Assembly: GCA_026162565.1 (NCBI GenBank)
Contig: JAOEIQ010000002.1
Coordinates: 186,001-250,000, forward strand
Direction of reading: 5' to 3'
Length of the DNA stretch: 64,000 nt
DNA from: Flavobacteriaceae bacterium NBU2973
GTDB lineage: Bacteria > Bacteroidota > Bacteroidia > Flavobacteriales > Flavobacteriaceae
The notes beneath the pieces were generated by a model. It searched no databases, was not told where the DNA came from, and saw only the letters and a program-made list of their open reading frames with translations. Below are positions 4,988-56,583 of the stretch, in pieces. The position numbers and the translations under genes are program-made. The stretch's first letter is position 1. Each line of letters opens with the position of its first letter.

Positions 4988-5063
4988 TTTAAAAGTATTT
5001 AATAATCAATATTAGTTTTTTTAATTGTATGAATACAATATGTAAAGACGGAAGTAAAAAAAT

Positions 5064-5168
5064 TTAATAACCCAAAAGGGTAGTCGTAAACAAACATGTA
5101 TAAACAGATAACAATTCTAAAGATTGAAATTGCGCTAAAGCTCTGTTTATTTTTTGAATGTTTTTCAT
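5064..5168 (-). CDS. Possible 34-residue leader peptide ahead of thrA
   Basis: A 34-codon ORF starts about 10 bases downstream of the TACTTTTG box and ends FTTTLLGY. Three consecutive Thr codons (ACG ACT ACC) lie just before a weak ACCC-TTTT-GGGT hairpin and a run of T residues. The position, the Thr run and the hairpin are what a threonine attenuator would need. However, known thr leaders have many more Thr/Ile codons and stronger hairpins, and AT-rich DNA makes such ORFs by chance, so this is a weak call. Confidence 0.25.
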   Translation of the reverse strand: MKNIQKINRALAQFQSLELLSVYTCLFTTTLLGY

Positions 5169-5177
5169 ATACACTTT

Positions 5178-5185
5178 CAAAAGTA
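5178..5185 (-). promoter_or_regulatory. Candidate -7 box of the thrABC promoter
   Basis: On the minus strand this reads TACTTTTG, a full match to the Bacteroidota -7 consensus TAnnTTTG. It is about 190 bases upstream of thrA, leaving room for a regulated leader. No clear -33 TTTG lies at the right spacing, so the assignment is tentative. Confidence 0.4.
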
Positions 5186-5234
5186 TTATTTTTACTCAAA
5201 TAAAAAAATAAATCACCTACTTTCAGATAAATAC

Positions 5235-6791: not shown

Positions 6792-6820
6792 AAAAAGGCA
6801 CTCATTTGAGTGCCTTTTTT
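6791..6820. terminator. Bidirectional terminator between nnr and the TlpA-like gene
   Basis: A perfect 14-bp stem AAAAAAGGCACTCA / TGAGTGCCTTTTTT with a 2-base loop. It begins at the nnr stop codon, and flanking A and T runs serve both converging genes. Confidence 0.93.
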
Positions 6821-6841
6821 ATCTAAATATTGATTGTATGG

Positions 6842-7903
6842 TTATATTTTTAACGAGTCAAATAAGGCTCTTAATTTTGGACTTGATGGTCTAGGTGCAT
6901 CAGCATTAACAACATTCCCAGAAGGATCAATTAAAATAAATCTTGGAATACCATTAATTTCAAATCCTTGAACAAAATCTGATTTCCAACCCTTATCTGA
7001 AAGTAACTGTGTGCCTCCCAATTCTTTTTCGATTACCATTTTTTTCCATCCTTCTTTTGCAGCATCTGCATCACCTTTAAAACCTCTTCCGTCATCAACA
7101 GAAATACTAACAAATTCAATGTTTTTATCATGATAATCTTTTTCAACTGCTTTTAGTGAAGGAATTTCTCGAATACAAGGCCCACACCAAGTTGCCCAAA
7201 CATCAACATATACATATTTTCCTTTTAAATCTGCCAACGATGTTGTACCACCTTTATGATTCTCAAAGTTCTCAAAGTTAGGAGAAGGGTTTCCAATAAA
7301 CTTTGCAAATTTTGCTGCTCTAGCTTCAGATTGCTCTTTGTAACCTTGGTAAGATTTTAAAATATCTGCTTGAAACGACTCAAAACTTTTGGTTTCATTT
7401 GATAGCAAAGTTGAATCTAAATCTTTAGCATTATTTAAAAACGAAACAAGTTTAGAATGAATTTTACTAGTTTCTGCTTTGAAGTCATCTTCTTCCATAT
7501 CAAAAAGACTAGGAGGATATAGGGTTTCTTCCATCAATGCTTTTTTAGCTAAATAATTACTAGACTCCGAACCATAGCCAGCATAAGAAATGGTTTCGTC
7601 AAATTGCTTGGTGTCTAGGGTCATAGTAATATCATAACCATTTTTTAAATACATACTACTAGATTCATTGCCATCGTAAATACCATAAACGCCAGTTTCA
7701 ACCTTTAGAGTATCACTAAAAGTTCCATCGTCATTTACTTTAATTGTTTTTGAAAAATTGCGACCTTGATACACATATAGAGAGTCACTGTTCATATCAG
7801 TGATTTTTCCAGACAAGGTTACATAGTCTTTTAGTTCTTCTTGCTTCTCACTTTTACATGAAAATATAGAAGCGACCATAAGCATTATTATGATTTTTTT
7901 CAT
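6842..7903 (-). CDS. TlpA/ResA-like thioredoxin-fold lipoprotein with N-terminal DUF4369-like domain
   Basis: A 353-residue envelope protein. The lipobox SIFSC puts the lipidated cysteine at C16. A beta-rich N-terminal domain (about 25-110) resembles DUF4369, and a helical linker leads to a thioredoxin fold with active site WCGPC at 239-243 and the cis-Pro loop GIPRF. Proteins of this build are periplasm-facing thiol-disulfide oxidoreductases. The substrate is unknown. It stands alone, converges with nnr, and has its own well-formed promoter at 7931-7960. Confidence 0.85.
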   Translation of the reverse strand: MKKIIIMLMVASIFSCKSEKQEELKDYVTLSGKITDMNSDSLYVYQGRNFSKTIKVNDDGTFSDTLKVETGVYGIYDGNESSSMYLKNGYDITMTLDTKQFDETISYAGYGSESSNYLAKKALMEETLYPPSLFDMEEDDFKAETSKIHSKLVSFLNNAKDLDSTLLSNETKSFESFQADILKSYQGYKEQSEARAAKFAKFIGNPSPNFENFENHKGGTTSLADLKGKYVYVDVWATWCGPCIREIPSLKAVEKDYHDKNIEFVSISVDDGRGFKGDADAAKEGWKKMVIEKELGGTQLLSDKGWKSDFVQGFEINGIPRFILIDPSGNVVNADAPRPSSPKLRALFDSLKI

Positions 7904-7930
7904 ATTGTTTTTTATTTTTAATTATGATCT

Positions 7931-7960
7931 CAAAAATAAAGAATTCAAAACTTTAAACAA
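7931..7960 (-). promoter_or_regulatory. Promoter of the TlpA-like lipoprotein gene
   Basis: On the minus strand GTTG is followed after 19 bases by TATTTTTG, matching the Bacteroidota sigma-A pattern (-33 TTTG / -7 TAnnTTTG). The -7 box is 27 bases from the ATG at 7903. Confidence 0.65.
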
Positions 7961-8037
7961 CATATTATGGCTATTTATTAACATTGTTTGGTTTTTATAA
8001 AGTGAATGTAGATTTTTGAGCTGATTAAAAACATCTA

Positions 8038-9546
8038 ATGGAAGAGTACCATATTATATCATCGGATTTTTTAGATTTAAAAGCTATTAAATCTATTTTA
8101 GATGACAACAAATTATTAAAGCTTGGTGAGGACGCTATTAATAAAATTGTAAAATGCAGAAGCTATCTTGATGAAAAAATGGCATCACAAAGCCTTCCGA
8201 TTTACGGAATTAATACTGGTTTTGGATCGCTCTGTAATATTAAAATATCTAATAAAGATTTAAACCGATTACAAGAAAATTTAGTTAAATCTCATGCCTG
8301 TGGTACTGGTGACTTAGTTCCTGTAGAAGTTGTTAAGTTAATGCTGTTGTTAAAAATACAATCATTGAGTTATGGTCATTCAGGAGTCCAGTTAGAAACC
8401 GTTAATAGATTGATTGATTTTTTTAATAATGATCTCTATCCATTAATATACACACAAGGTTCTTTGGGAGCATCTGGTGATTTAGCTCCTTTAGCACATT
8501 TGGCACTTCCGTTAATTGGAGAAGGAGAAATGTATTACAATGGAGAAGTGTTTGACTCTAAAAAGATTTTAGAACGGTTTAATTGGAAACCAATACAATT
8601 AAAATCTAAAGAAGGCTTATCCTTATTAAATGGAACACAATTTATGAGTGCTTATGGTATTCATTTATTATTAGAAAGTTATAAGCTTTCATATTTTGCT
8701 GATTTGATTGGTACCATATCTCTTGAAGCATTTGATGGTAGAATAGAACCATTCAATGAGTTAATACATTTAGTAAGACCTCATAAAGGACAGTTAAAAA
8801 CTGCTGAACGAGTTAGAGAGTTTTTAGAAGGTAGTCAATTAATTAGCCAAGCTAAAGTTCATGTTCAAGATCCTTACTCATTTAGATGTATCCCTCAAGT
8901 ACATGGAGCCTCAAAGGATACTCTAGATTTTGTACAAAATACATTTTTAACAGAGATAAATTCTGTAACAGATAACCCAAATATTTTTCCTGATGACGAT
9001 CAAATAATTTCTGGAGGTAACTTTCATGGTCAACCTCTTGCATTAGCATTAGATTATTTAAAGATTGCTGTTTCAGAACTCGGTAATATTTCTGAAAGAC
9101 GAACCTATCAATTAGTTTCTGGCTTACGTGGCTTACCTGAATTTTTAGTTAGCAATCCTGGTTTAAATTCTGGATTGATGATACCTCAATATACTGCAGC
9201 GAGTATTGCAAGTGCTAATAAACAACTGGCCACTCCTGCTAGTATAGATTCAATAGTATCGTCAAATGGACAGGAAGATCATGTAAGTATGGGAGCCAAT
9301 GCAGCTACTCAAGCATTTGAAATAGTTAAAAACTTAAAAAGCATACTTTCAATTGAATTATTAAATGCCTCTCAAGCATTATTTTTTAGAAAACCTTTGC
9401 AATCTTCACAGTTTATAGAATCCTTTTTATCAGCTTACAGAGCAACGGTCGTGTTTGTTGAAGAGGATAAATATCTTCATAAAGAGATAAAAGAAACCAC
9501 TATTTTTATTAGTAATTTTTCGTTGGAAAGTGATTTGATTTTTTAA
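8038..9546 (+). CDS. hutH: Histidine ammonia-lyase family protein (HutH)
   Basis: HutH deaminates histidine to trans-urocanate using the self-formed MIO cofactor. The Ala-Ser-Gly triad that makes MIO is at 145-147 in GSLGASGDLAPL, and Y56 in YGINTGFG is the conserved catalytic tyrosine. Length of 502 residues is normal. No hutU, hutI or hutG gene is within 20 kb, so it may serve a dispersed hut pathway. Aromatic-residue selectivity (His against Phe/Tyr) cannot be settled from the sequence, so tyrosine or phenylalanine lyase activity remains possible. Confidence 0.88.
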   Translation: MEEYHIISSDFLDLKAIKSILDDNKLLKLGEDAINKIVKCRSYLDEKMASQSLPIYGINTGFGSLCNIKISNKDLNRLQENLVKSHACGTGDLVPVEVVKLMLLLKIQSLSYGHSGVQLETVNRLIDFFNNDLYPLIYTQGSLGASGDLAPLAHLALPLIGEGEMYYNGEVFDSKKILERFNWKPIQLKSKEGLSLLNGTQFMSAYGIHLLLESYKLSYFADLIGTISLEAFDGRIEPFNELIHLVRPHKGQLKTAERVREFLEGSQLISQAKVHVQDPYSFRCIPQVHGASKDTLDFVQNTFLTEINSVTDNPNIFPDDDQIISGGNFHGQPLALALDYLKIAVSELGNISERRTYQLVSGLRGLPEFLVSNPGLNSGLMIPQYTAASIASANKQLATPASIDSIVSSNGQEDHVSMGANAATQAFEIVKNLKSILSIELLNASQALFFRKPLQSSQFIESFLSAYRATVVFVEEDKYLHKEIKETTIFISNFSLESDLIF

Positions 9547-9926
9547 TTTAACTCGTTTTTAACTTTTCGTCTAACTACAAAAATACTAGTTAAAGTTCCT
9601 TGTGAGAATAGTATTTATAGTCTAATTTTGGATTATGATTCAATGTGTAAACTTTGGATTATCAAGAACATAAAAACATAATAGCAATTTTTATGTTCTC
9701 TACACACAAAATAAAATTGTTTAATAGCACAACAATTTAATTGATTAATAGCGCATTTATTGACCTGTGAGTATGTTTTATACTTACTATTTATTCAAAA
9801 TTTCAGTATTAATTTATTGTCTTTTTTGAATATGTTTTTTGTTTAACAAAAAGCACATTTTTATGAGTTTATAACTCCCAGAGTTACTAAATAGTGTTAA
9901 AATAATTTTAATTAATTCTAAATGTT
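9547..9926. other. 380-base non-coding region between hutH and the giant secreted protein
   Basis: AT-rich with no ORF that looks coding. It holds one strong hairpin, AGAACATAAAAA / TTTTTATGTTCT (12-bp perfect stem, 11-base loop, 9665-9699), which lacks a trailing U-tract and may be the hutH 3' end or a leader structure. Near 9870 there is a small dyad AACTC-CCA-GAGTT. I see no clear TAnnTTTG promoter, though the downstream gene must have one. Confidence 0.6.
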
Positions 9927-12900
9927 ATGTTTATGAGCAATTTTACCCAAGATGAGAGACCTGCCTGTCGCAGCTCTTTTGTCATGAATTTAACGAGTTG
10001 CTGTAGCAAACTTTTAAAACAATCTAAAAATAACATGTTAAGCTTTTTGCTTCCCATGTTTTTGTTGTTTTCTGTAAGTACGTTACAAGCACAAAAATTA
10101 CAAACAGATCAAGAAAGAAGTGTTTTCTATGAGGTTTGTTTAAGTCAAGCCCCAGAAGGGTTTACTGAAGAGCAAGTTGAAGCAATGGTGGAAGCCGCTT
10201 TCAATTGTTCTAAATTACAAGTAACTAAAAATGTTGTCACTGTTGGTGACGATTGTTTTTGGGAATCATTCCATTCATTTACAATCGAAGGATTTGATGA
10301 GTGTGAAGGAATTTCTGATGTAATTAAGTATTATTATCAAGGTGGAGACAGAACAGCTCCTGAATTAACAGGAACTTTACCTCCAAGTGTTGATAATATT
10401 AACTTATGTTTTAGTATGATACCTCCAGGTCCAACTGCAGAGCAAATAGGTATGCAGTATACTGACAACTGTGGAGGACCAATAATGGTTACTAAAACTG
10501 GCGAGCCAACTGAAGATAGTGATGATTGTTCTTGGGAAGTTACTTACACTTATGTTATTAAAGATGAGTGTGGTAATACCGTTGAGCCTGAAGTAAAAAT
10601 CACGTACACAGGAGGCGATAGTTCTGCACCTACATTAATAGGTGAAATTCCAGCAGATCAAGATAGCCTTAACCAATGTTTCTTAGATAAAGAACAAGGG
10701 CCTACTGAAGCTGAAATCGCTGCACTTTTTACAGATAATTGTACAACAATTACAGAAGCTAACGTTGTTAAGCAAGAAAATTCTAAAGGTAATGATTGTA
10801 AGTGGTTAGCAGTATATACGTATACAGTAACTGATAATTGTGGTAATTCATACCCTCCTTTCGAGATTATGTATTCTGGTGGAGACTATGAAGCACCTGT
10901 TTTAGATCCAGCTCCTGCAAATACGACAATTTCATGTATCGATGAGTTTAATCCACAAGCTATTCCTGCTTTAGGATGGACAGATAACTGTGCTGGAGAA
11001 GGTACTGCACCAGGTATACCTGACTTTTCAGGACTTGGTTTACCTTGTGCTGGTGGAGAAGTTGTAATCAGATGGAATTATACTGATCCTTGTTTAAACC
11101 CAGCTGAAGAAAGAGTACAAGTAATTACTGTATTACCTGCTCCTCAAGCTCAATTCCCTCCAGTAGAGAATACTTCAATACTTTGTGAAAATTTAGATTC
11201 ATATGTACCACCTGTATTAACGGTTAGTAATAACCTTGATTCTATGGTATGTTTAATCGAAGCTGAAGTAGAAGGTACTTGGTCTTTTGATGAAAACTGT
11301 GGAACATTTACTGTTAGCTATTCTTATACAGATGCTTGTGGTAGAGAATCTACAACATCTTTTGACGTAGAAGTAATCGATAATACTCCACCTTCAATTG
11401 AAGCTCCTGCTGCATTCAAAGCAGAGTGTGATGAAGAATGGGCGTTTGGTGACCCAACTTTCTCTGATAATTGTGATGAAAATCCAACATTAGAGATTGT
11501 AAGTACTGTTGAAAATTTAGATGATTGTGGATTAGGTACTGTTACACGTACTTGGAAAGCAACAGATTCTTGTGGAAACTCTGCAACAGATTCTCAAACA
11601 GTATATATAGAAGATAACACGAATCCTACTATTGAGGCAGGAAGTGCTTTTAAAGTAGAATGTGATCAAGAAATCGTTTGGCCAGAACCAGATTTTTCAG
11701 ATAACTGTGATGACAAACCAGAATTAACTATCGTTAGTACTGTGGCAAATCTTGATGAAGATTGCTACACTGGAACTGTAACACGTACTTGGAAAGTAAC
11801 GGACTGTGCTGGTAATACAGCTACAGATTCGCAAACAGTTTATATTGAAGATAATACTGATCCAACAATTACCGCTGCAGATCCAAAAGACGTACAATGT
11901 GATGAAGAGTGGTCATTTGACACACCTGAATTTGCTGATAACTGTGATGAGAATCCTACATTAATGATTGTAGGAGAAGATGTTGCAGATTTAAACGATT
12001 GTGGATTAGGTACAATTACTCGTACTTGGAAAGTAAGCGATTGTGCTGGTAATACAGCTACTGCATCGCAAACTGTTACTATTTTAGATAGTACAGATCC
12101 TACCATTACAGCTCCTGACGATTTTACTGTTGAGTGTGATCAAGAGTATGCTTTTGGTCAGCCAGAATTTGGTGATAATTGTGATGAGAACCCAGTATTA
12201 TCAGAACCAGTAGACACACCAGATTTAGATGAGTGTGGTTTAGGTACTGTAACAAGAACATGGACAGTTACTGACTGTGCTGGTAATACAGCAACAGCTT
12301 CTCAAACGGTTACTATAGTTGATACTACTGCTCCAGTGTTTACATCTGTGCCAGAAGATTTATTATTAGAGTGTGATGAAGAAGCACCAGTAGAAATGGC
12401 TACAGCAGTAGATAACTGCGATAGCGATGTTACTGTTACTTATGCAGATTACGATTTCTATACACCTTGGAAAGCTTTTGTAAGTGGAGATGGTAGTGTA
12501 GACTTAACAACTACACCTGATGGATTTGTAGTAACAGGTTCTAACCAAGGTACTTTTGGTACTCCATGGTTAAATGTAGCATTTACAACTGTGAAGGCTA
12601 TGAACATTAGCTTTGATTTTGACTATGTTAATAGTGACGACTTTGGTGGTGGATGGGATGACCTTGTAGCCATTGTTAATGGAGAAATTGTAGCGAGTTT
12701 AACAGATTCTACAAATGGTATAGGAAGTTTTGATTTACAAGCAGGCGATGTATTTGCAATTGGTATATTCAATCCTTCTGATGATTGTTGTGGTGGAGCT
12801 ACGGTTACTGTAAGTAATCTAGTATATACTCCAGCAGAATTAGAATGTCCAATAACAAACTGCTTTATTAGAGAGTATACTGCAACTGATTGTGCAGGTA

Positions 12901-29743: not shown

Positions 29744-29817
29744 GGTCGCGTAGCTCAGCTGGATAGAGCATCTGCCTTCTAAGCAGACGGTCACAGGTTC
29801 GAATCCTGTCGCGATCA
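29744..29817 (+). tRNA. tRNA-Arg(TCT), integration target of the island
   Basis: Acceptor GGTCGCG pairs with CGCGATC (one G-T pair), discriminator A. Anticodon stem TCTGC/GCAGA encloses CTTCTAA (anticodon TCT). T-arm ACAGG-TTCGAAT-CCTGT. 74 bases. Its last 14 bases and the next one form the island attachment core, so the tRNA is restored by the element. Confidence 0.96.
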
Positions 29818-29818
29818 C
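29804..29818 (+). repeat. Left attachment site core (attL) in tRNA-Arg
   Basis: The 15-base TCCTGTCGCGATCAC at the 3' end of tRNA-Arg recurs exactly at 56569-56583. A tyrosine recombinase gene starts 231 bases away. This is the standard arrangement for tRNA-targeted integration. Confidence 0.88.
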
Positions 29819-30048: not shown

Positions 30049-31299
30049 ATGAGAGCTCGTTCAACATTCTCACTTCTGTTCTGGGTTACTGCTTCAAGAA
30101 CAAAAAACAATCAAGTTCCAATTTACGCACGAATTACTGTAAATGGTAAAAGGGTAAATATCAGCCTTAAGCGTAAGGTTTTTATTTCTGACTGGGATTC
30201 TAAACTCGGTAAGGTTAAAGGAAACAAACAAAACGCTAAACTGTTAAATCAGTATTTAAACCAAATTCGTAATAAAGTTTACGAAGCATATGAGGAATTA
30301 TTAAGCGAAAACAAATTAATCACTTCCCAAGCTATTAAAGCAAGATTTTTAGGAGAAGATGAAAAATCCAGAAGTTTAATCGAGTTGTTTGATTATCACA
30401 ACGAATTGATGGAGCAAAAGCTTCATAAAGATACTATGAAGCATTACAGGACTACTCAAAAATATCTTAAGCAGTTCCTGGTAAAAAAGTATAATACAGA
30501 TAATTTGTTTTTAAACTCACTAAACTATGCATTTATAGTAGATTTTGAATATTACTTAAAAGCATATCAACCAACAGACCACCAACGTAAGATTAGTAAT
30601 AATACAGCTATGAAACATTTACAGCGGTTACGAAAAATGGTTACAATGGCTTTTCATTTAGAGTGGATAGATAGAGATCCATTTGTTAGGTTTAAATCTA
30701 AATTTGAAAAAAGAGAAAGAGAATTTTTATCTACTACTGAACTACAATCATTAGAAGAATTCTCAAGTGAAGTAAATCGTATAAATATTGTAAAAGACTT
30801 ATTTATCTTCAGCTGCTATACAGGTATTTCATTTATTGATATGAATGGTTTAACCAAAAATAATATAGTTAAAGGAATTGATGGTAATGATTGGATTGTA
30901 ACGAAAAGACAAAAAACTAAAACGCCAGTTAAGATACCTATACTTCAACAAGCAAAGGAATTGATAATTAAGTACCAAGACAATCCAAGAGTAATTACCG
31001 CTAATAGTTTATTACCTATTTTATCCAATCAAAAAATCAATAGCTACCTAAAAGAAATTGCAGATATATGTGGGATTAAAAAGAATTTAACCTTTCATAT
31101 GGCAAGACATACTTTTGCAACTACAATCACTTTAAGTAACGGTGTGCCTATAGAAACGGTTTCTAAACTACTTGGCCATAAAAAAATAGCAACTACCCAA
31201 ATATATGCTCGTGTGATAGAAAAGAAAGTAAGTGAGGATATGCGAAAATTGAGTACAGCCTTATCTCAAAATAAGATGAAAAGAACTATAAATAATTGA
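30049..31299 (+). CDS. Tyrosine recombinase / integrase, CTnDOT-like family
   Basis: A 416-residue site-specific recombinase with an AP2-like arm-binding N-terminus, a SAM-like core-binding domain (about 105-205) and a catalytic domain. The catalytic HxxR is H350-R353 in FHMARHTFA, the third box His is H377 in LLGHKKIATTQ, and the nucleophile is Y386 in QIYARV. The first box reads TGIS (258-261), so the usual catalytic Arg I is replaced by Ser, as reported for IntDOT of CTnDOT. It is the first gene inside attL and points away from the tRNA. Confidence 0.94.
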   Translation: MRARSTFSLLFWVTASRTKNNQVPIYARITVNGKRVNISLKRKVFISDWDSKLGKVKGNKQNAKLLNQYLNQIRNKVYEAYEELLSENKLITSQAIKARFLGEDEKSRSLIELFDYHNELMEQKLHKDTMKHYRTTQKYLKQFLVKKYNTDNLFLNSLNYAFIVDFEYYLKAYQPTDHQRKISNNTAMKHLQRLRKMVTMAFHLEWIDRDPFVRFKSKFEKREREFLSTTELQSLEEFSSEVNRINIVKDLFIFSCYTGISFIDMNGLTKNNIVKGIDGNDWIVTKRQKTKTPVKIPILQQAKELIIKYQDNPRVITANSLLPILSNQKINSYLKEIADICGIKKNLTFHMARHTFATTITLSNGVPIETVSKLLGHKKIATTQIYARVIEKKVSEDMRKLSTALSQNKMKRTINN

Positions 31300-41942: not shown

Positions 41943-42094
41943 CTATTCTACTACGATTTAAAAATATATCCTTTTTCAAGTGGGTTATAAAAACTTATCC
42001 GTACAAGTTAGAGAATAATAATCGGAGTTGATTGTAACATTAGCACTTATAAATTGTCTTGATTATATAAGTAACTGTTCATTTAAACTATATA

Positions 42095-42289
42095 GCAAGA
42101 CACTCGTTTGCAACTACAACCACTTTAAGCAATGGTGCGCCTATCGAAACGGTTTCTAAACTACTTGGTCATAAAAAAATAGCAACTACTCAAATATATG
42201 CTCGTGTGGTAGAAAGAAAAGTAAGCGATGATATGCAAATCTTAAAAGATAAGTTTTCAAAACAAACTAATAATGCCAAAATAGTGTAG
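42095..42289 (+). pseudogene. C-terminal remnant of a second tyrosine recombinase
   Basis: 64 codons and a stop encode ARHSFATTTTLSNGAPIETV onward, through LLGHKKIATTQIYARV, ending NAKIV. This is nearly identical to residues 352-400 of the integrase at 30049 but differs at the C-terminal tail. There is no start codon and no N-terminal part. It is the scar of another integrase of the same family, left when a second element was inserted or lost. Confidence 0.9.
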
Positions 42290-46466: not shown

Positions 46467-47312
46467 TTGAAAGCTTATGATAAAATAGTAGAAGGACTAG
46501 ATAGTCATTTAGAATTTTTAGAATCTGAAACAGAAGATGTATTAACAAAAGCTGAAGAAGGAATCAAAATTGCTAAAAAAGCATTACTTCAATTAAGAAA
46601 AGTTGTTACAAATAAAGACCTTAAATCAAGAGAACAAGAAATAACCATATTCAAAATAATTAAACCCAAAATATATAGTAGGTTAATTTACTATGTAAAA
46701 CTATTTAGTATAGAAAGTAAACGACCTAGAGGAAGCTCTAAATCTCAAAAGAAATACCTAGACTATGAAATTAAGAAACTGCAAGATTATTTTAATGACA
46801 ACCTTGAGTTTTATCAATACTACAGAAGAAGTGAAACATCTTTAGATAATCAATACTTTATTAGAGGTAAAGAAGATATTAGATTACACCCAGATAATTT
46901 CCATTTTTTTATTGATGAAAAATTCTCAACAAGTCATGATTCTACTGTAGCAACAATAATAGCTTATGATATGCTTATTGTTTACCTACAAAAAGAAATA
47001 GAACTAATTGAAAATAAAAACGGAATGGAAACAAGTTATAATGCTTTTCAAAAGCAATCCAAATTATTTTGGACTGGTAATAAAACAGACTTAATAGAAC
47101 TTATTTACGCGCTACATAGTTCTGGCGTTATAAATAGTGGTACTGCAGATATTAAAGAAGTGGCATCAGTATGCGAGCAAATGTTTAATATTAGTTTAGG
47201 CGATTATTATAGAACCTTTTTAGAGATACGTTCAAGAAAAATTAATCAAACTAAATTTATTGATAAGTTAAAAGATTCGCTTACTAATAAAATGCTAGAA
47301 TCAGACGAATAA
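46467..47312 (+). CDS. RteC-like regulator
   Basis: 281 residues in the RteC family, which in Bacteroides CTnDOT activates the excision operon in response to tetracycline through RteA/RteB. The helical N-terminal half and the DNA-binding C-terminal part (FIRGKEDIRLHPDNFHFF..., LIELIYALHSSGVINSG..., FLEIRSRKINQTKFIDKL) fit. The start is a TTG at 46467; no ATG is available. It sits directly upstream of the excisionase-like gene, as in CTnDOT-type elements, but no rteA/rteB pair is present. Confidence 0.85.
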   Translation: MKAYDKIVEGLDSHLEFLESETEDVLTKAEEGIKIAKKALLQLRKVVTNKDLKSREQEITIFKIIKPKIYSRLIYYVKLFSIESKRPRGSSKSQKKYLDYEIKKLQDYFNDNLEFYQYYRRSETSLDNQYFIRGKEDIRLHPDNFHFFIDEKFSTSHDSTVATIIAYDMLIVYLQKEIELIENKNGMETSYNAFQKQSKLFWTGNKTDLIELIYALHSSGVINSGTADIKEVASVCEQMFNISLGDYYRTFLEIRSRKINQTKFIDKLKDSLTNKMLESDE

Positions 47313-47579: not shown

Positions 47580-47858
47580 ATGGCAGCAACAATTATTACT
47601 ACTGAAGATTTACAAGAATTTAGACACGAACTATTAAATGATATCAAAACATTACTTGACACTCAAACTACTTTCAAGCAAAAGAAATGGCTCAAGTCAC
47701 CAGAAGTTAGAGAGCTATTGAGTATTTCACCAGGAACATTACAAAATTTAAGAATTAATGGAACACTGCCATATACCAAAGTAGGCGGTGTAATCTATTA
47801 TGACTATGAGGAAATCGTTAAGGTAATGGAAGAAAATCGAATTCATAATAAGTTTTAG
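47580..47858 (+). CDS. Excisionase-type helix-turn-helix protein
   Basis: 92 residues. The core LKSPEVRELLSISPGTLQNLRINGTLPYTKVGGVIYYDYEEI is the MerR-like winged-helix pattern of Bacteroidota excisionase/HTH_17 proteins. It follows the RteC gene as in CTnDOT, where Xis proteins act with IntDOT. Excision or replication control is inferred. Confidence 0.85.
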   Translation: MAATIITTEDLQEFRHELLNDIKTLLDTQTTFKQKKWLKSPEVRELLSISPGTLQNLRINGTLPYTKVGGVIYYDYEEIVKVMEENRIHNKF

Positions 47859-47863
47859 ATGTC

Positions 47864-48421
47864 TTGGCAGAAGTTAATTATATCACACACCTCAACACCA
47901 TATTCCAACATTTTTTAGAAGACAATCGGTTAAATCCAACACATATAAGTTTGTATATGGCATTATTTCAGGTTTGGAATAGTACGCGATTTCCCGAAGA
48001 GTTTTTTGTAATACGAGATGAGGTAATGAAACAATCTAAAATTGGTTCTAAATCTACCTATCATCGTTGCTTAAAAGAGTTACATAAATATGGTTACATA
48101 AAATATGAACCTTCACACAATCCATATAGAGGTAGTAAAATTAAGTTAACCAAAAATTGGACAAGCTCTGGACAAGTACTGTACCAACACAGTCCCAAAA
48201 TTGAGACAACCACTGGACAAGCATTGGTACATATATATAAACATAATAAAACAGGAATAAACAATATAAACAGCTCAAACAAAAAATTTAAAAATTCAGA
48301 TAAAGAAGATTTTGAAAACCAAAGCAAACAAAAAAATGCCTGCACCGAGCGCAGTCGAGGTGTCCCAAATATGGACAACCTTAAGGTAAGTAATGACAAA
48401 GATTATAACGAACCCCTTTGA
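47864..48421 (+). CDS. Replication-initiator-like winged-helix protein
   Basis: 185 residues, predicted start TTG at 47864. The ATG at 47860 is in another frame. Residues 1-105 have a helix-turn-helix plus wing (HISLYMALFQVWNSTRF..., SKSTYHRCLKELHKYGYIKY) found in flavobacterial and Bacteroides element proteins next to DnaC-like ATPases. The C-terminal third is low complexity and contains a REP-like sequence (48343-48362) that has been read into the coding frame. Likely binds an element origin. Confidence 0.7.
   Translation: MAEVNYITHLNTIFQHFLEDNRLNPTHISLYMALFQVWNSTRFPEEFFVIRDEVMKQSKIGSKSTYHRCLKELHKYGYIKYEPSHNPYRGSKIKLTKNWTSSGQVLYQHSPKIETTTGQALVHIYKHNKTGINNINSSNKKFKNSDKEDFENQSKQKNACTERSRGVPNMDNLKVSNDKDYNEPL
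48343..48362. repeat. REP-like palindrome within the coding sequence
   Basis: CACCGAGCGCAGTCGAGGTG has CACC and GGTG ends. The pattern resembles the abundant flavobacterial repeat built around CGACTGCGCTC. It falls in frame near the end of the replication-initiator-like gene. Confidence 0.55.
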
Positions 48422-48489: not shown

Positions 48490-48518
48490 GTCTTCCTGAA
48501 CTTGATTCAGAATCTCAT
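48490..48518. repeat. REP-like intergenic element (GTC...GAATCTCAT type)
   Basis: A 29-base unit starting GTCTTCCTGAA, with CTGAA-CTTGA-TTCAG inside and AATCTCAT at its end. Shares end signature with 17886-17922. Confidence 0.5.
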
Positions 48519-48528
48519 AAATAAAAAA

Positions 48529-49191
48529 ATGAAAACCAAAACACCACATATAATTACTGAAAAAGGTATAGACTACCAATTAGGAGAATTAAACGATAAT
48601 TTCATAAAATATGATTTCGATAAAATTTTAGCCTATCTCAATGTAAAAGGAAAACTATTGTTCGGTGATAGGTTTAAAATTTACAATGAAGATGAGGTAA
48701 TACTTTACAAGTTGTGTATTTATTTCATTAAAGACTCTGAAGCTTGTAAAAAACAAAATATAGATATTGACAAAGGTATTCTACTAACTGGACCAGTAGG
48801 TTGCGGTAAAACAAGCCTAATGAAATTATTGCGCCATATAGTACCACATCATAAACCGTATAAAATCATTCCTTGTAGAAATACAGTATTTAGCTTTAAT
48901 CATTTGGGTTATAAAACGATTGAAGATTATGGCAATGATAAGTTCTATTGTTTCGATGATTTAGGTGTGGAACCATCTGGTCGTCACTATGGTAAAGACT
49001 GTAATGTAATGGGTGAAATCTTGTTATCTCGTTATGATTTATTTCTAAAGAACAAAATAAAAACCCATTGTACTACCAACCTTAATGCACAAGAATTAGA
49101 AGCAAGATATGGCAATCGAGTACGCTCTAGAATGCGTCAGTTATTTAATTTGATTGCTTTTGATAAAGAGAGTAAGGACAAAAGGAGCTAA
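48529..49191 (+). CDS. DnaC/IstB-like AAA+ ATPase
   Basis: 220 residues starting MKTKTPHIIT at 48529; the extra nine codons upstream (TTG start) seem unlikely. Walker A is GPVGCGKT (88-95) and Walker B CFDDLG (141-146). The arginine-finger end RVRSRMRQLFNLIAFD is present. DnaC-like helicase loaders accompany replication or transposition proteins. Here the neighbour is the winged-helix protein, so helicase loading at an element origin is the best guess. Confidence 0.85.
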   Translation: MKTKTPHIITEKGIDYQLGELNDNFIKYDFDKILAYLNVKGKLLFGDRFKIYNEDEVILYKLCIYFIKDSEACKKQNIDIDKGILLTGPVGCGKTSLMKLLRHIVPHHKPYKIIPCRNTVFSFNHLGYKTIEDYGNDKFYCFDDLGVEPSGRHYGKDCNVMGEILLSRYDLFLKNKIKTHCTTNLNAQELEARYGNRVRSRMRQLFNLIAFDKESKDKRS

Positions 49192-49257: not shown

Positions 49258-52098
49258 ATGATTCACTGCCTAATAGACACTTGTAGCTTAATCAATCTTT
49301 TATCTAAAGAAGATAGTTTGTTGGATTTGGAAAATCTAAAGTTATGGCAAGAGAAAAATGAGTTGATGATATTACTACCTGAAACTGTAAAAGATGAGTG
49401 GAATCAACATAAAATCAAAGAAAAAGAAAAATACAGGCAAACTGTAAATACAAAATTTAGACATACTCGTGAAATATTAACGAACACTAGTTTAAGTATA
49501 CCATGGAGTTTTCGTGAAATGGTTTATGGTAAGATTGAGACAAAAATTAATGCGGTAGATGATTTACTTGAAAAAGCAAGTGAAATTCCAATAACTACTA
49601 CCGTTAAAGCTTTAATCCCTGATAGACAGCTTTTAAATAACGATAAAAGAAAAGCACCATTTCATAATAAAATTGATAGTGTAAAGGATGCTTATATAAT
49701 ATTTTCAACATTAGAATACCTTAAAGAGAAACAAGCTAATAAATTACTTTTTATTTCAGAGAATAAAAATGATTTTGGTAATCCACAAAACAAAGACAGG
49801 GAGATTCATCCTGACATCTCAAATGATTATCCGTTTATTCAAATCGATTATTATTCAGATATTTTTTTCGCTATAAATGAATACAAAAAAGAAATGCCTG
49901 TTTTACAAGTGTCACAGCCACATGCAATTAAAGATAATGAAGAGGCGTTAAATCAATATAGTAACAAAGGGAAGATTTCTATTGATAAAACCGAACCACT
50001 ACTTAATCAATTATATTATTATTTAAAAATAAGATTCGAAGAGATTAAAATTTTACCATCTTATCTTTTTATAAGATATTATCCTTTTGAAAATGGAGCT
50101 ACATGTTATAGAAATGATTTTGCATTAAGAAATATTAATCCAGAATTGTTGGAAGTACTTAAATCATTTGAAATAATTGATAGAAAATTAATAAACAATT
50201 TTAAATCGAGAAATGATTATAATAAAGCGTCTTTCATTTTAAATACGTTAAGCAGAAATCATATTTTTTACTTGCATGGTAAAAAGCGTGAAGACTTTAG
50301 GGATATTCGTGTTCATAGTAAACAACAAAAACTTAATTTGATTGATAAATATATTCAGTTCAAATTTATTGAAGTTTACACGGAATTAGATAAAGAACAT
50401 TTGTTTAATACAGTAGATGAAAACCTAAAAGCAGGATATTTTTATTACAAAATAGGAGATTTAATAAAATCTAAAGATTGTTTTTTAGAGGCTAGAGAAT
50501 TGGCTCTGAAGGAAAAACAGGAAGTAACACAATTAATCTGTAATCATAATTTACATCATTTAGCTAGGTCAATTGAATTTAGATATTGGAAGCTAGAAAA
50601 TAAAAATTCTATTGTAAAAAAACTGAAGAATATTGATAACCGTCAAACTAAAGTATCAGCACATAACTTAAAGATTAAAGATTTAATTGTTGACAATTCC
50701 TTCTTTACAAACGCACAAATTAAATTACAAACACTCAAAGAAGAAATAGTTGATACGTATCAAGGCTATTTAAGAGGGTCGAGGAGTTCAAATAATTTTG
50801 ATTGGGAAATCTTTTACCAATACGCAACATTGCATCAGTTCTTGAGTAAAAACTATATAGTTTATGAACATTATTCGGATTATGATGATGTAATTAATAG
50901 TTTGGGAGAGTCTGTGTTTGCATCGTTTGCAATAAAGAATGGAATGAATAAAATTAATCATTTAGATGATTATACTTTGTTACATTTTGTTCATTATGCA
51001 AAAACAAAAGATTTAGAAAAGTTTTACAAAAGGTATCATTTGTCGAAGCTCAATTATTTGAAATCTGAAGACGAAGGAGAGGATATCGTAAATCTGTTCC
51101 TTAATTTTATATCTAACAACATTAATGAATTAAAGACTTTGTTAAAACAACAACCAGAACAGGTTAGTGACAAATTTTGGAATGATTACAATAGGTATTT
51201 TACCAACTTACTTTTTTTATGTAGTATTCTAAAACTTGAAAAGGGAATAGTAAAACGTTTATCTGTTGCTTTGATTGAATTTTTGGATAAAAATTTAAGT
51301 TGGTTGTGTCACAAATCAAATGAAAATAGTAAATATATCTATCACTTTTTTATACGACAGCAAGAGTTTATTAGACCAGGAATTATTAAAAGGGTATTAT
51401 TCCTTTCGTATAAGCATAAAGATTTTTTTTCGGAATATTTAAATTCAGAGCTTGTTGATTCATGTTTAGAATTAAAACGAAAAATTAAAGTTACAGATAT
51501 TCAACTATTAAAAAAGATTATTCCTAGTATTCAAAATAGAATTTTTGAAGATGGAAAATTGAATTATTATAATGTCGTAACCCATATTTATCCTCTTCTC
51601 AACTCTAATCAAAAAAAGATTTTTTCTGATTTTTATCTAAAGATTCTAGAGGATAAATTCAACTATTATCTCTTTTATATACTAGTTGTTTACGATGTCT
51701 TTGATATTAATGAAAGTGATTTTTTGAATAAATATATAAATAGTATTGACTTAAAAAACGATGTAGAACATAGAAGTAGGGGCCTTTTAGAAAAACCAAC
51801 GTTTAAACGTTACAATAAAATAGATAGTTTGCTAAATATGTGGTTTAAATACGATTTTGATTTAGAAGACCCAAGAGTATCAAAATTTAAAAAAATTAAT
51901 GACTATTATAATTGGCTATTGGATTTAGAAGGATTTGATTATGATAAGTTTGATATTGATTGGCTAAATGAGTTTGGTACAAGATTTTATTATGCTCATT
52001 TCAGAAAATCTACTACACTTAAAAGCAAAATTAAAAGCATTTTAAATGAAGATTTTGATATTAAGTTGAAGAAGGTTTATTGTGACATCTATAATTAA
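49258..52098 (+). CDS. Large PIN-domain protein with TPR-like C-terminal region
   Basis: 946 residues. The first 180 are a DUF4935-type PIN nuclease: D7 in LIDTCSLIN, E47 in PETVKDEW, D140/D144 in KIDSVKDAYIIF, and D172 in SENKNDF are the expected metal-binding acids. Residues about 380-430 have a TPR-like unit (AGYFYYKIGDLIKSKDCFLEA), and the rest is long, helical and unassigned. The architecture, nuclease N-terminus plus long helical sensor, resembles SIR2- or other effector-TPR defence proteins. No antitoxin-sized gene is beside it. RNA cleavage upon phage sensing is inferred. Confidence 0.75.
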   Translation: MIHCLIDTCSLINLLSKEDSLLDLENLKLWQEKNELMILLPETVKDEWNQHKIKEKEKYRQTVNTKFRHTREILTNTSLSIPWSFREMVYGKIETKINAVDDLLEKASEIPITTTVKALIPDRQLLNNDKRKAPFHNKIDSVKDAYIIFSTLEYLKEKQANKLLFISENKNDFGNPQNKDREIHPDISNDYPFIQIDYYSDIFFAINEYKKEMPVLQVSQPHAIKDNEEALNQYSNKGKISIDKTEPLLNQLYYYLKIRFEEIKILPSYLFIRYYPFENGATCYRNDFALRNINPELLEVLKSFEIIDRKLINNFKSRNDYNKASFILNTLSRNHIFYLHGKKREDFRDIRVHSKQQKLNLIDKYIQFKFIEVYTELDKEHLFNTVDENLKAGYFYYKIGDLIKSKDCFLEARELALKEKQEVTQLICNHNLHHLARSIEFRYWKLENKNSIVKKLKNIDNRQTKVSAHNLKIKDLIVDNSFFTNAQIKLQTLKEEIVDTYQGYLRGSRSSNNFDWEIFYQYATLHQFLSKNYIVYEHYSDYDDVINSLGESVFASFAIKNGMNKINHLDDYTLLHFVHYAKTKDLEKFYKRYHLSKLNYLKSEDEGEDIVNLFLNFISNNINELKTLLKQQPEQVSDKFWNDYNRYFTNLLFLCSILKLEKGIVKRLSVALIEFLDKNLSWLCHKSNENSKYIYHFFIRQQEFIRPGIIKRVLFLSYKHKDFFSEYLNSELVDSCLELKRKIKVTDIQLLKKIIPSIQNRIFEDGKLNYYNVVTHIYPLLNSNQKKIFSDFYLKILEDKFNYYLFYILVVYDVFDINESDFLNKYINSIDLKNDVEHRSRGLLEKPTFKRYNKIDSLLNMWFKYDFDLEDPRVSKFKKINDYYNWLLDLEGFDYDKFDIDWLNEFGTRFYYAHFRKSTTLKSKIKSILNEDFDIKLKKVYCDIYN

Positions 52099-52397: not shown

Positions 52398-53702
52398 ATG
52401 ATCAAGAGGTATTTAGGCCATAAAACTAAACGATTTTCTTTTCACAATGGCCAAGAAGAAACAAGCTATGTAGCAATATTTGGAGATGAATTTGAACTCG
52501 ATCCTGCTCAAAATAATACAACGTCTAAATTTCGAGATGCTGTATATAGAGGAAGACAAGGAAAAATAAGGTCTAACACTACATTTCTCAATCATAAAGA
52601 ACTGGAGTTTTATTTCCTTGATATAGGCCAGAGAGATGCAGCTTTCATTACCACACCTAACGACACTAAATTATTAGTAGATGGAGGACTTTATGATAGA
52701 GCTCTAGGATTTCTAATATGGAAATATAGATTAGACCAACCAAATAACAGCGTTACTATAGACCATCTTTTTTTAAGTCATGCAGATGGGGATCATGTAC
52801 AAGGGCTTATTCCTTTACTACAACACCCTCGAATTACTGTGTCTAATATTTATCATAATGGTATTGCACTCTATGAAAGTGGTCACAATGAAGAATTGGG
52901 TACTGTAAATAATAATAAGTTAACAACATTACATGACTCTATTAATGAATTGGATAATGCTAATCTTAAAGACGATTATCAAGATTGGGTAAATGCTGTA
53001 AAAGCATCTGGAGCTAATTATAAACGATTAGATGCTAGTGATGGTTTTATTGATGTAGGAGACAATAGTCTTAAATTCGAAATTTTAGGGCCAATATTAA
53101 ATTCAGATGGTACCTTAAATTGGTTTAAGAACAAATCTCATACTATTAATGGGCATTCTTTAATTTTCAGGATCGATTATAATCACGTAAGAAGCTTCTT
53201 TTCTGGAGATCTTAATATTGAAGGTAGTAAACACATTTTAGATGTTCCAGGTAACCAATTAAAAGTTAATGCCCATATTTTTAAAGCACCTCACCACGGT
53301 AGTCATGAGTTTTCACAAGAATTATTATATGCTATAAATCCAATGGTATCTGTGATATCATCAGGAGAGGTTCCAGATCATGGGCATCCTAGAGCAATAT
53401 TTTTAGGAGGATTGGGTAGAGCAGGACGTGGTTCTGAACCTCTTATATTTTCAACAGAGTTATCAGCTTTATTTGTCGATGCTGGTGATCCAGAATCGGT
53501 TGACCATGCAGATAATACTGATACGACCATGGAGGGATTGGACTTTTCAAATTCTTCAGCTAATCGAGAGGCTAGACAAAGATTTAAAAAGCTTTTATCT
53601 GGTATAATTAATGTTCGAACAAATGGAGAAAGAATATACTCATTTAGAAGGGTGCAAATGGGATATCAATGGGAAAGTTACAATCAAAAGTTTTCAAATT
53701 AA
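52398..53702 (+). CDS. ComEC/Rec2-like metallo-beta-lactamase-fold hydrolase
   Basis: 434 residues, soluble. The metal motif is LSHADGDHVQGL (H128, D130, D132, H133), later HHGSHEFSQEL and SSGEVPDHGHP. GQRDAAFITTPNDTKLLVDGG precedes it. This is the DUF4131-free ComEC C-terminal MBL domain without the membrane channel. An N-terminal 60-residue extension lacks matches. Free-standing MBL proteins of this kind occur beside defence genes, and a nuclease or phosphodiesterase role is possible. It stands alone between two repeat-rich regions. Confidence 0.82.
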   Translation: MIKRYLGHKTKRFSFHNGQEETSYVAIFGDEFELDPAQNNTTSKFRDAVYRGRQGKIRSNTTFLNHKELEFYFLDIGQRDAAFITTPNDTKLLVDGGLYDRALGFLIWKYRLDQPNNSVTIDHLFLSHADGDHVQGLIPLLQHPRITVSNIYHNGIALYESGHNEELGTVNNNKLTTLHDSINELDNANLKDDYQDWVNAVKASGANYKRLDASDGFIDVGDNSLKFEILGPILNSDGTLNWFKNKSHTINGHSLIFRIDYNHVRSFFSGDLNIEGSKHILDVPGNQLKVNAHIFKAPHHGSHEFSQELLYAINPMVSVISSGEVPDHGHPRAIFLGGLGRAGRGSEPLIFSTELSALFVDAGDPESVDHADNTDTTMEGLDFSNSSANREARQRFKKLLSGIINVRTNGERIYSFRRVQMGYQWESYNQKFSN

Positions 53703-54002: not shown

Positions 54003-54329
54003 CTACACTTCTTCAACAGGTGCTTTAGGTGCGTTTGTTTTAACAGAATCGATGCCATTTTCCATTCCAGAAGAACTTTCATACATCTCACTAGTACCAA
54101 TAACTTGCCCATTACTAGCCTTAAGATTAAAATAATGCTTGCCGTTACTTGAAGTTTTTCGTTTAAATCTACTATCTATTTGCGAATTAGTTCTAACAGA
54201 CTCGATACCATTCATACAATTGGCTTTAGTGGTGTATCCCTCACTAGCTAATATTTTTTGACCATTACTTGCTTTTAATCTGAAACGATATTCTGATTTA
54301 GCGTCTTGATATACTTCGAATTTTCCCAT
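54003..54329 (-). CDS. YegP-like DUF1508 protein
   Basis: 108 residues with two DUF1508 repeats: FEVYQDAKSEYRFRLKASNGQ... and HYFNLKASNGQVIGTSEMY. These small proteins are of unknown function and often appear with stress or element genes. The C-terminal SVKTNAPKAPVEEV extension is unstructured. It is downstream of the lysis-like cassette but separated from it by a terminator. Confidence 0.9.
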   Translation of the reverse strand: MGKFEVYQDAKSEYRFRLKASNGQKILASEGYTTKANCMNGIESVRTNSQIDSRFKRKTSSNGKHYFNLKASNGQVIGTSEMYESSSGMENGIDSVKTNAPKAPVEEV

Positions 54330-54364
54330 AATAATATTTGATATGTTTTGTATCTAAATATACT

Positions 54365-54393
54365 AAAAAAAAGTGCTTCAAATGAAGCACTTT
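54365..54393 (-). terminator. Terminator of the 261-residue/DUF5675/membrane-protein cassette
   Basis: On the minus strand AAAGTGCTTCA-TT-TGAAGCACTTT followed by a T-run. An 11-bp perfect stem 3 bases past the end of the last small gene. Confidence 0.92.
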
Positions 54394-54396
54394 AGA

Positions 54397-54579
54397 TTAT
54401 GGTTTTCCTCTTTTCCGAATCCTCTTATGAATACACTTAACTAAAATTGAAACTATGTAACTAACGACAGCCCCAACAATTGCCAAAACAACGGTAGTAA
54501 TTAAATCTTCAACACCAATATTCACAATTGATGAAAAAAAAGTACCACCAATAATGGCAGATTTAGTGTTGCTATCCAT
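54397..54579 (-). CDS. Small membrane protein, one predicted helix (holin-like size)
   Basis: 60 residues starting MDSNTKSAIIGG at 54579. A start 8 codons upstream is possible. A long hydrophobic segment (IVNIGVEDLITTVVLAIVGAVVSYIVSILVKC) ends in a strongly basic tail HKRIRKRGKP. It overlaps the end of the upstream membrane-protein gene by 8 bases. Size, single or double helix and basic tail are holin-like, but this is a weak inference. Confidence 0.7.
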   Translation of the reverse strand: MDSNTKSAIIGGTFFSSIVNIGVEDLITTVVLAIVGAVVSYIVSILVKCIHKRIRKRGKP

Positions 54580-54811
54580 CGTTGGCTGTATTGTCGTCTG
54601 CATTTTCCTCGTCTTTAATTACAGCTTGACTTACTGCGGTGGCCACAGTTCCCGCAACTGTTATATAAGTTGCAATTTTCACAACCAAAACAGGCATCGC
54701 AACTGGTGCAGCAATAATAGCACCACCTGCAGTAGCTAAAGCAATACCAATGTTGCGTAAAGTTCTAAAGAATTTAGGAGTTGGTTTTTTATATCGTTCT
54801 ACAATGTTCAT
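54572..54811 (-). CDS. Small membrane protein, second of the cassette
   Basis: 79 residues. A basic N-terminus (MNIVERYKKPTPKFFRTLRN) precedes two hydrophobic stretches (GIALATAGGAIIAAPVAMPVL and IATYITVAGTVATAVSQAVI) and an acidic tail. Glycine-alanine-rich helices as in holins or pore-forming peptides. It overlaps the DUF5675 gene by 23 bases, showing tight coupling. Confidence 0.7.
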   Translation of the reverse strand: MNIVERYKKPTPKFFRTLRNIGIALATAGGAIIAAPVAMPVLVVKIATYITVAGTVATAVSQAVIKDEENADDNTANDG

Positions 54812-55211
54812 AATTTTGTGATTTAATAGTTAATAAAATGGTTTCTTTTCTATCTTTAGCTTGATACACCAAAGACAATAGTTTTTGCATAGCATTTTTA
54901 GAGTAAATGCCTTTGCCTATACCACTCAAATAAGTTACTGGAGCAATACACCCTTGAAGCTCTTTTAAGGCATCATTTGCAGGATGAAACAGAATGTAAC
55001 TTCTGCCTTTTACAGCTTTTAAAATCAAGTGATATTTAAACCGTTTTGAAAAACGTGGTTCAACTTCATACTGTCCTTCAGGAATGCAAGACACATTTCG
55101 CTTGTTATTTTTCCAGGGTAATTCTATGGTATGGCAAAGGAATGTTTCAGAGCTAAAGAGAGTACCATTGGTACCCTCTTTAAAATACGCTCTGTAAAGT
55201 GTCAATTCCAT
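54789..55211 (-). CDS. DUF5675 protein, possible L,D-transpeptidase-like fold
   Basis: 140 residues. ELTLYRAYFKEGTNGTLF and CIPEGQYEVEPRFS start the domain. LFHPANDALKELQGCIAP near residues 75-91 places H76 and C88 in a spacing reminiscent of the YkuD His...Gly-Cys pair. That similarity is my reading and not a database result. If real, the protein would act on peptidoglycan. It lies between the 261-residue gene (2-base gap) and two membrane proteins, the layout of a lysis cassette. Confidence 0.7.
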   Translation of the reverse strand: MELTLYRAYFKEGTNGTLFSSETFLCHTIELPWKNNKRNVSCIPEGQYEVEPRFSKRFKYHLILKAVKGRSYILFHPANDALKELQGCIAPVTYLSGIGKGIYSKNAMQKLLSLVYQAKDRKETILLTIKSQNYEHCRTI

Positions 55212-55213
55212 AA

Positions 55214-55969
55214 TTATGGAGTATCTACAGTCACAACAGCTAAAGCGTTGTAAGCACCGTTTTTAAGCGCGTACATTTGTCCGTTTACCTCTTGATAAAA
55301 CTCAATGCCTAACACTTGCACAACAGGCAATGTTGAGTTAGCTGTTAAAGCTGCTGTCAAATCAATTGGAGCAGTATCGACAGCAGTATAAGGCAGAATT
55401 GCCGTTTCGTCATTTTCAAACGTTGAGGTTTCATTGGCGAAATCCAATTCTGTAGCACCCATAACCACTTTAAAGTGAGTTGTTCCTGCAGGAGCTGCAA
55501 TTCTAACAACAGGAGAAAAGGCTGTTAAACTTAAAGTTGCCTCACCAGAAACTCTGTCAAAAGCCTTGGTAAATGCCGCAAATAAGGTTGAGCCTAACTT
55601 ACCATTCAAATTGAATTCAAAGTTTTCCAATAAGCTTAAATCACCATCTTGTAAGGTTCTTAAACCTCTTATATTTGTCGTGTCGGTTTTGGTAATCGCT
55701 ACAAGCGTTTTGGTTAATCGAGAAACTACACGTTTGTCTTTTGCATTTTGCAAAAGCACACGAATCGCATTTCTCAATAGTTTACCACCTTTACCAGCAC
55801 GTCCAAATTCAGAGCCATTTTCACGTGTTCTCTGAAACGCAGGATCATTTGCAATACGATTTGCATCCACGCCACCTTTTTCACGTGCAAGGTGTCCATC
55901 AGAAGTTTTGTAAAAGAAAATACCACCGATAGTTCCTTTTAGTTTAATAATTCCAGTTTGCTTTGCCAT
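55214..55969 (-). CDS. Conserved 251-residue protein of unknown function (MAKQTGIIKLKGTIGG type)
   Basis: I start it at the ATG at 55969 (MAKQTGIIKLKGTIGGIFFY); a longer form from 55999 reads through a dyad and is less likely. N-terminal beta turns (KLKGTIGG.FFYKTSDGHLAR) and a basic helical region are followed by a beta-rich, Thr/Ala-rich second half. I recall similar N-termini in Bacteroidota proteins of unknown role beside DUF5675 genes. It has no signal peptide and could be structural. It heads the cassette. Confidence 0.65.
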   Translation of the reverse strand: MAKQTGIIKLKGTIGGIFFYKTSDGHLAREKGGVDANRIANDPAFQRTRENGSEFGRAGKGGKLLRNAIRVLLQNAKDKRVVSRLTKTLVAITKTDTTNIRGLRTLQDGDLSLLENFEFNLNGKLGSTLFAAFTKAFDRVSGEATLSLTAFSPVVRIAAPAGTTHFKVVMGATELDFANETSTFENDETAILPYTAVDTAPIDLTAALTANSTLPVVQVLGIEFYQEVNGQMYALKNGAYNALAVVTVDTP

Positions 55970-55981
55970 AATAATTCGTTT

Positions 55982-56000
55982 TTTGATTAATGAAATCAAA
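55982..56000. promoter_or_regulatory. Dyad TTTGATT-N5-AATCAAA upstream of the cassette
   Basis: A 7-bp inverted repeat 13 bases upstream of the proposed start of the 251-residue protein. Candidate operator; no matching regulator known. Confidence 0.4.
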
Positions 56001-56568: not shown

Positions 56569-56583
56569 TCCTGTCGCGATCAC
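56569..56583 (+). repeat. Right attachment site core (attR)
   Basis: TCCTGTCGCGATCAC, an exact 15-base copy of the tRNA-Arg 3' end. The T-loop side of the tRNA is absent, so this is the displaced 3' end of the original gene. Confidence 0.88.

Follow-up and report, generated by a model that had tools for sequence, protein, structure and literature searches.

The window analysed here, a stretch of 64,000 nucleotides from contig JAOEIQ010000002.1 of Flavobacteriaceae bacterium NBU2973, carries at 49258-52098 on the forward strand a gene for a protein of 946 amino acids (P0001). It is probably a single-gene anti-phage protein acting by abortive infection, in which a helical sensor of the type found in defense-associated sirtuin 2 (DSR2) is joined to a PIN ribonuclease that replaces the SIR2 NADase. 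The computed support comes from the acidic site of the PIN domain, homology of the helical part to the MID and C-terminal domain (CTD) of DSR2, swapping of effectors among relatives and a position in a slot for defence cargo. Because relatives pair the same sensor with four other effectors, the gene is probably a one-gene antiviral system with an exchanged weapon and a retained alarm. The initial annotation had proposed a PIN counterpart, carried by a mobile island, of SIR2-type proteins that abort infection. This was borne out at the level of sequence, and the helical part proved to be a homologue of the DSR2 sensor.

Gene and PIN domain

The open reading frame (ORF) starts with ATG and has no internal stop codon, while stops are abundant on the opposite strand. 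It was accepted as a real gene because homologues are 24-36% identical across the whole module that follows the PIN domain; the frame of 946 residues described earlier was confirmed as intact. The N-terminus matches PIN_12 only (PF16289, residues 6-173, 49273-49776 on the forward strand, E 7.7e-13) with a score of 49.6 bits against a curated cut-off of 32, and no SIR2 match was found in the protein with Pfam. In an alignment of five PIN_12 proteins, the window protein and four others, D7, D46/E47, D144 and D172 are invariant. Of the acidic residues named beforehand, D7, E47, D144 and D172 therefore stand, but not D140, at which the nearest PIN relative has Glu.

Scans with Pfam, PADLOC, NCBIfam and PHROGs returned nothing for the approx. 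750 residues after the PIN domain, and PADLOC and NCBIfam hold no model for the window protein. No NTPase family was matched at E≤1 in the Pfam, PADLOC and NCBIfam scans. An assignment as STAND/AVAST or NLR-like protein was dropped, as no P-loop NTPase was found between effector and sensor.

Homology of the helical module to DSR2

Residues ~232-946 (49951-52095 on the forward strand) are a homologue of the DSR2 sensor module (MID and CTD), as seen in profile, profile-profile and fold comparisons. A family profile of 14 modules was searched against the whole PDB and matched DSR2 chains only, with a best E-value of 5.5e-4 and a domain E-value of 0.0065, values that make this match weak on its own. 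Profile positions 90-712 aligned colinearly and without rearrangement to DSR2 375-1000. Two DSR2 orthologues, a Priestia plasmid protein with a full-length DSR2 match and one in genome G999, were then used for profile-profile comparison. With hhalign, the family profile matched the MID and CTD of these orthologues with a probability of 98.0% (E 1.4e-13, 561 colinear columns), and a family profile free of SIR2 members reached 96.7% (E 3.2e-10, 607 columns). Six column-shuffled versions and the reversed version served as controls and gave ≤0.2%; most unrelated proteins stayed below 1%. Two true TPR proteins scored 36% and 48%, but only across 38-61 columns. They align near profile positions 138-206, which places a TPR-like pair inside the module.

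The scaffold of DSR2 consists of an HTH, a helix bundle, six HEAT repeats and a C-terminal domain (PMC11263360). Mapping by hhalign, with the domain limits of that study, assigns residues 357-479 (50326-50694), which hold the TPR-like pair, to the helix bundle (DSR2 410-547), and residues 480-799 (50695-51654) to the HEAT repeats (DSR2 548-858). Residues 800-946 (51655-52095) correspond to the C-terminal domain (DSR2 859-1000), and this part, which would contribute to the cavity, is the best conserved section of the module and carries the family signature WL..x.FDY..F...W. Outside it, the module and DSR2 have few residues in common. The earlier description of a long helical region after the PIN domain holds for approx. 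715 residues, predicted as mostly helical from poor models. Its label as TPR-like is right for the one pair of repeats; the overall scaffold is DSR2/HEAT-like.

The fold search proposed in the initial annotation pointed the same way. A full-length AlphaFold model (mean predicted local distance difference test score, pLDDT, of 43) was discarded, and the model of the module alone was poor as well (mean pLDDT 49); the alignments used for folding were thin since they consisted of window and related-locus rows only. Foldseek, queried with the module-only model, listed nothing but DSR2 among its first 27 hits (E 8.8e-7 to 1.3e-3), and the next protein followed at E 0.012; the model was for this reason used as a weak independent check. 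VIA-align placed model residues 135-532 on DSR2 409-837 in the same register as the sequence alignment, which also supports the assignment of the HEAT part; its Z of 15 is only moderately above unrelated helical repeats (up to 11).

Exchange of effector domains in the family

Relatives were gathered by iterated searches across whole genomes and plasmids. What they have in common with the window protein is its residues ~232-946, and most have another N-terminus. DUF4365 precedes the module in loci L013, L015, L018 and L032, and an MmeI_N/type-IIG-like nuclease in L004, L016, L030 and L031 (for L031 Pfam reports HSDR_N, yet the sequence aligns with the other MmeI_N-type members). Mrr-like nucleases with a GxD...QxK motif were found in L016 and L029 with Mrr_cat just under its cut-off, and SIR2_2 in L033, L041 and the frameshifted L014. 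The second PIN-type member, in L017, has a PIN domain 41% identical to that of the window protein. In L034 (8436-12769) the module stands alone, between a preceding gene with a weak EAD11 match (E 7e-4, below the cut-off) and a following gene with a clear EAD11 domain (E 4.7e-11); this is possibly a split, adaptor-coupled form of the system. Matches in genomes G1152 and G1025 were discarded as plain TPR proteins.

In a tree of the modules (17 rows), the window protein groups as sister of the Mrr-type protein of L016 (support 100/100), apart from the other PIN protein. Given the long branches, finer points of the topology could change, but this pairing of proteins with unlike effectors is firm. 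A forced clade of the two PIN rows was rejected (approximately unbiased p value, p-AU, 7.3e-7), as was a forced clade of the two Mrr rows (p 8e-113). At least two changes each for PIN and Mrr fall on starred branches of this tree. The sister relationship with an Mrr protein and the rejected PIN clade indicate that the effectors have been swapped.

It is somewhat favoured that the DSR2 sensor is a general plug-in detector of phage proteins that works with five or more exchangeable effectors (PIN RNase, SIR2 NADase, and DNases of the Mrr-like, DUF4365 and MmeI types), besides the separate protein flanked by EAD11-type genes in one locus; the window gene would be its ribonuclease-armed form.

The family is rare, with matches in 4/395, 7/395 and 3/87 genomes of three overlapping samples, and is spread over several bacterial families. 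Scans of viral contigs with the queries A1, A2 and DSR2 and of a phage collection found no relative. Several relatives have restriction or other defence-type genes as neighbours; the genes seen there are type I or IIG restriction genes, a UvrD helicase, SIR2, pPIWI-associated nuclease (pP_pnuc) and DUF4238 genes, and a DNA methyltransferase accompanied by HEF_HK and Response_reg_2 proteins. No neighbour gene is conserved among module relatives on the genomic evidence, which is consistent with single-gene action without an obligate partner as in DSR2.

PIN domains are characteristic of VapC toxins and of factors that process RNA, so that a PIN RNase with a housekeeping or toxin-antitoxin role and a tail of helical repeats was considered as well. 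It is highly improbable here. The distribution is rare and patchy (3/199 genomes of the host family, one of them through the PIN part only), the gene lies on a mobile element, and its module is common to restriction-type nucleases and SIR2. As stated in the initial annotation, there is no antitoxin-like partner in the flanks: the 300-bp gap downstream has only chance-size ORFs of ≤38 amino acids, and the upstream neighbour, which ends 66 bp before the gene, is the DnaC-like loader of the element. A VapBC-type pair was dropped, as no adjacent small antitoxin gene was found.

Several features of individual relatives were also seen. The SIR2-type protein of L033 (7084-10611) has an extra N-terminal domain of ~170 residues with no Pfam match. 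L016 (2117-7692) contains tandem DSR2-module genes, first Mrr-like and then MmeI_N, followed by a pP_pnuc gene. Two DUF4365-type members are followed by a DUF4238 gene, immediately in L013 (9664-10560) and with one small ORF in between in L018 (10563-11666).

Proposed mechanism and trigger

In DSR2, monomeric tail tube protein is recognised by the CTD sensors, and MID relays the signal to SIR2 within a tetramer (PMC10981675). By homology, the window protein may oligomerise and be silent at rest, and since its module is homologous to the DSR2 sensor, the PIN domains would be kept inactive until a phage protein binds to residues ~480-946. This trigger would most likely be a structural protein in its free form, for instance tail tube, lodged in a cavity to which the HEAT and C-terminal parts both contribute. 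The resulting change would be relayed to the PIN domains, which would cut RNA (tRNA, rRNA or mRNA), and growth would stop before phage release.

Several observations weigh against this. The aligned identity between the window module and DSR2 is only about 16%, which leaves room for divergence of the ligand pocket and for a trigger other than tail tube. Taken without its family, the window sequence matches DSR2 over the last ~160 residues only (39%). The structure models are weak, and the relatives collected bring the number of PIN-type members to just two. DNA is the substrate of some PIN-fold nucleases; RNA is therefore the presumed target of the window PIN domain.

A real, if less probable, alternative is that the protein and its effector logic are the same while the sensor no longer recognises tail tube but a different protein of phages or mobile elements, or a nucleic-acid cue, and that DNA may be the substrate of the PIN domain. 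The low identity and the few residues shared with DSR2 beyond the C-terminal part fit such a trigger, as does the spread of the family over several bacterial families whose relevant phages differ. Against it, MID and CTD align colinearly throughout, and conservation is highest in the C-terminal part assigned to the cavity.

Relation to known systems

Like DSR2 (PDB 8k98, 8wyb and 8ygo), the window gene encodes a single large protein with an N-terminal effector of ~200-300 amino acids and a homologous MID and CTD module of ~620-700 amino acids with the same end point. It differs by its PIN_12 nuclease instead of the SIR2 NADase and by the low module identity. DSR2 assembles into a tetramer (dimer of dimers) via SIR2, MID and C-terminal contacts. 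The DUF4365, Mrr-like, MmeI_N-type and SIR2 relatives share the same full-length sensor module, but have a different N-terminal effector that is only predicted.

PIN domains in other defence systems are already known: DS-3 and DS-5, reported with DefensePredictor, require a PIN domain for phage defence (PMC13092281). They resemble the window protein in having a defence PIN domain without an antitoxin; compared by description only, neither is presented with a DSR2-type module (PMC13092281). Plasmid PIN_12 proteins (PF16289; e.g. from Shewanella xiamenensis and Agrobacterium) have the same PIN subfamily and acidic residues, but the two examined are 335-343 amino acids long and lack the DSR2 module. 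In the open-access papers searched, DSR2 is described with SIR2 only and no DSR2-type protein with a PIN effector came up; most preprints and the subscription literature were outside this search and an earlier report is possible.

If this sensor is indeed common to proteins with different, exchangeable weapons, DSR2 would represent a single branch within a larger family of immune receptors made of one protein. The structures already available for DSR2-tail tube and DSR2-DSAD1 would then predict directly how nuclease effectors are restrained and freed, and phage anti-DSR2 proteins might affect more than NADase systems. The window gene would couple tail-tube-type sensing to RNA cleavage.

Mobile element and cargo slot

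The gene lies inside an element of 26.8 kb between 15-bp repeats of the 3' end of tRNA-Arg (29744-29818). The left repeat (attL, 29804-29818, forward strand) forms the end of the tRNA gene and the identical right repeat (attR, TCCTGTCGCGATCAC) is found at 56569-56583 (forward strand). A tyrosine-type integrase is encoded at 30049-31299 (forward strand; phrog_1, E 1e-42). With the integrase and the repeats at both ends, the location on a mobile island suspected earlier was verified. The element further encodes, all on the forward strand, an RteC regulator (46467-47312, PF09357, E 9.3e-84), an excisionase-like HTH_17 DNA-binding protein (47580-47858, PF12728), a replication-initiator-like protein (47864-48421, phrog_428) that is kept in 12 related loci, and a DnaC-like helicase loader (48502-49191, phrog_50) with homologues in 51/149 genomes of the host family. 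The PIN gene directly follows the latter two genes, and the loader forms the left border of the cargo slot. The right border of the cargo region is the conserved right-end block of the element on the reverse strand (54003-55999) with DUF1508, two small hydrophobic ORFs, DUF5675 and a 261-amino-acid protein; its DUF5675 and 261-amino-acid proteins are 83-90% identical in L082 and L085.

The slot after the DnaC-like gene was read in the 12 related loci, eleven of which were complete while in one the contig ended. Recognised defence systems were present in nine of the eleven complete loci, and two had no recognised system. The slot contents were SIR2-HerA, AbiE (three times), Gabija, CBASS, type I restriction, an Eco57I-type enzyme and an MksE-type operon. 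The Wadjet-like label of the last, in L082, rests on one MksE match, and the SMC-like gene has no PADLOC match at 1e-10.

As the PIN gene is cargo of the element and a related element has this MksE-type (Wadjet/MksBEFG-like, anti-plasmid) operon in the same slot, the gene might shield the element by excluding rival plasmids or integrative elements instead of protecting the cell against phage. This is unlikely, given that most of the other slot contents are anti-phage (Gabija, CBASS, SIR2-HerA, AbiE, restriction) and that DSR2 itself is triggered by phage proteins (PMC10981675).

Two further observations concern these elements. In L086, a 1485-amino-acid STAND-like NTPase (2888-7345 on the reverse strand; 5657-10114 of the reverse complement) adjoins Gabija in the same cargo slot. 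In the window, 42090-42239 is a 150-nt copy (89%) of the integrase 3' end (31097-31246) without an intact ORF. It suggests the remnant of a second integrase and nested or accreted elements.

Neighbouring MBL gene

The second cargo gene encodes a ComEC-like protein with a metallo-β-lactamase (MBL) fold (52398-53702, forward strand, PF00753). It could be the second component of a two-gene system, comparable to AVAST type 1, some Lamassu systems and MBL-associated reverse transcriptases: both genes are adjacent on the same strand in the cargo region, and the MBL protein matches LmuA, RTasMBL and Avs1a of PADLOC. Such a system appears improbable. The genes are separated by the 300-bp gap, L017 and the other relatives have no MBL gene as direct neighbour, and a homologue with 71% identity stands alone in another genome without any DSR2-module gene. 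In L030, two other MBL-type genes lie ~3 kb off with a dynamin-DUF4365 gene between. The MBL-fold neighbour noted in the initial annotation is thus present, but it is probably independent of the PIN gene and outside the system, since its relatives stand alone and no other sampled family member has an MBL gene directly alongside. The MBL protein also matches phrog_7043, annotated as phage tail protein, at 2e-17, probably via the shared MBL domain.
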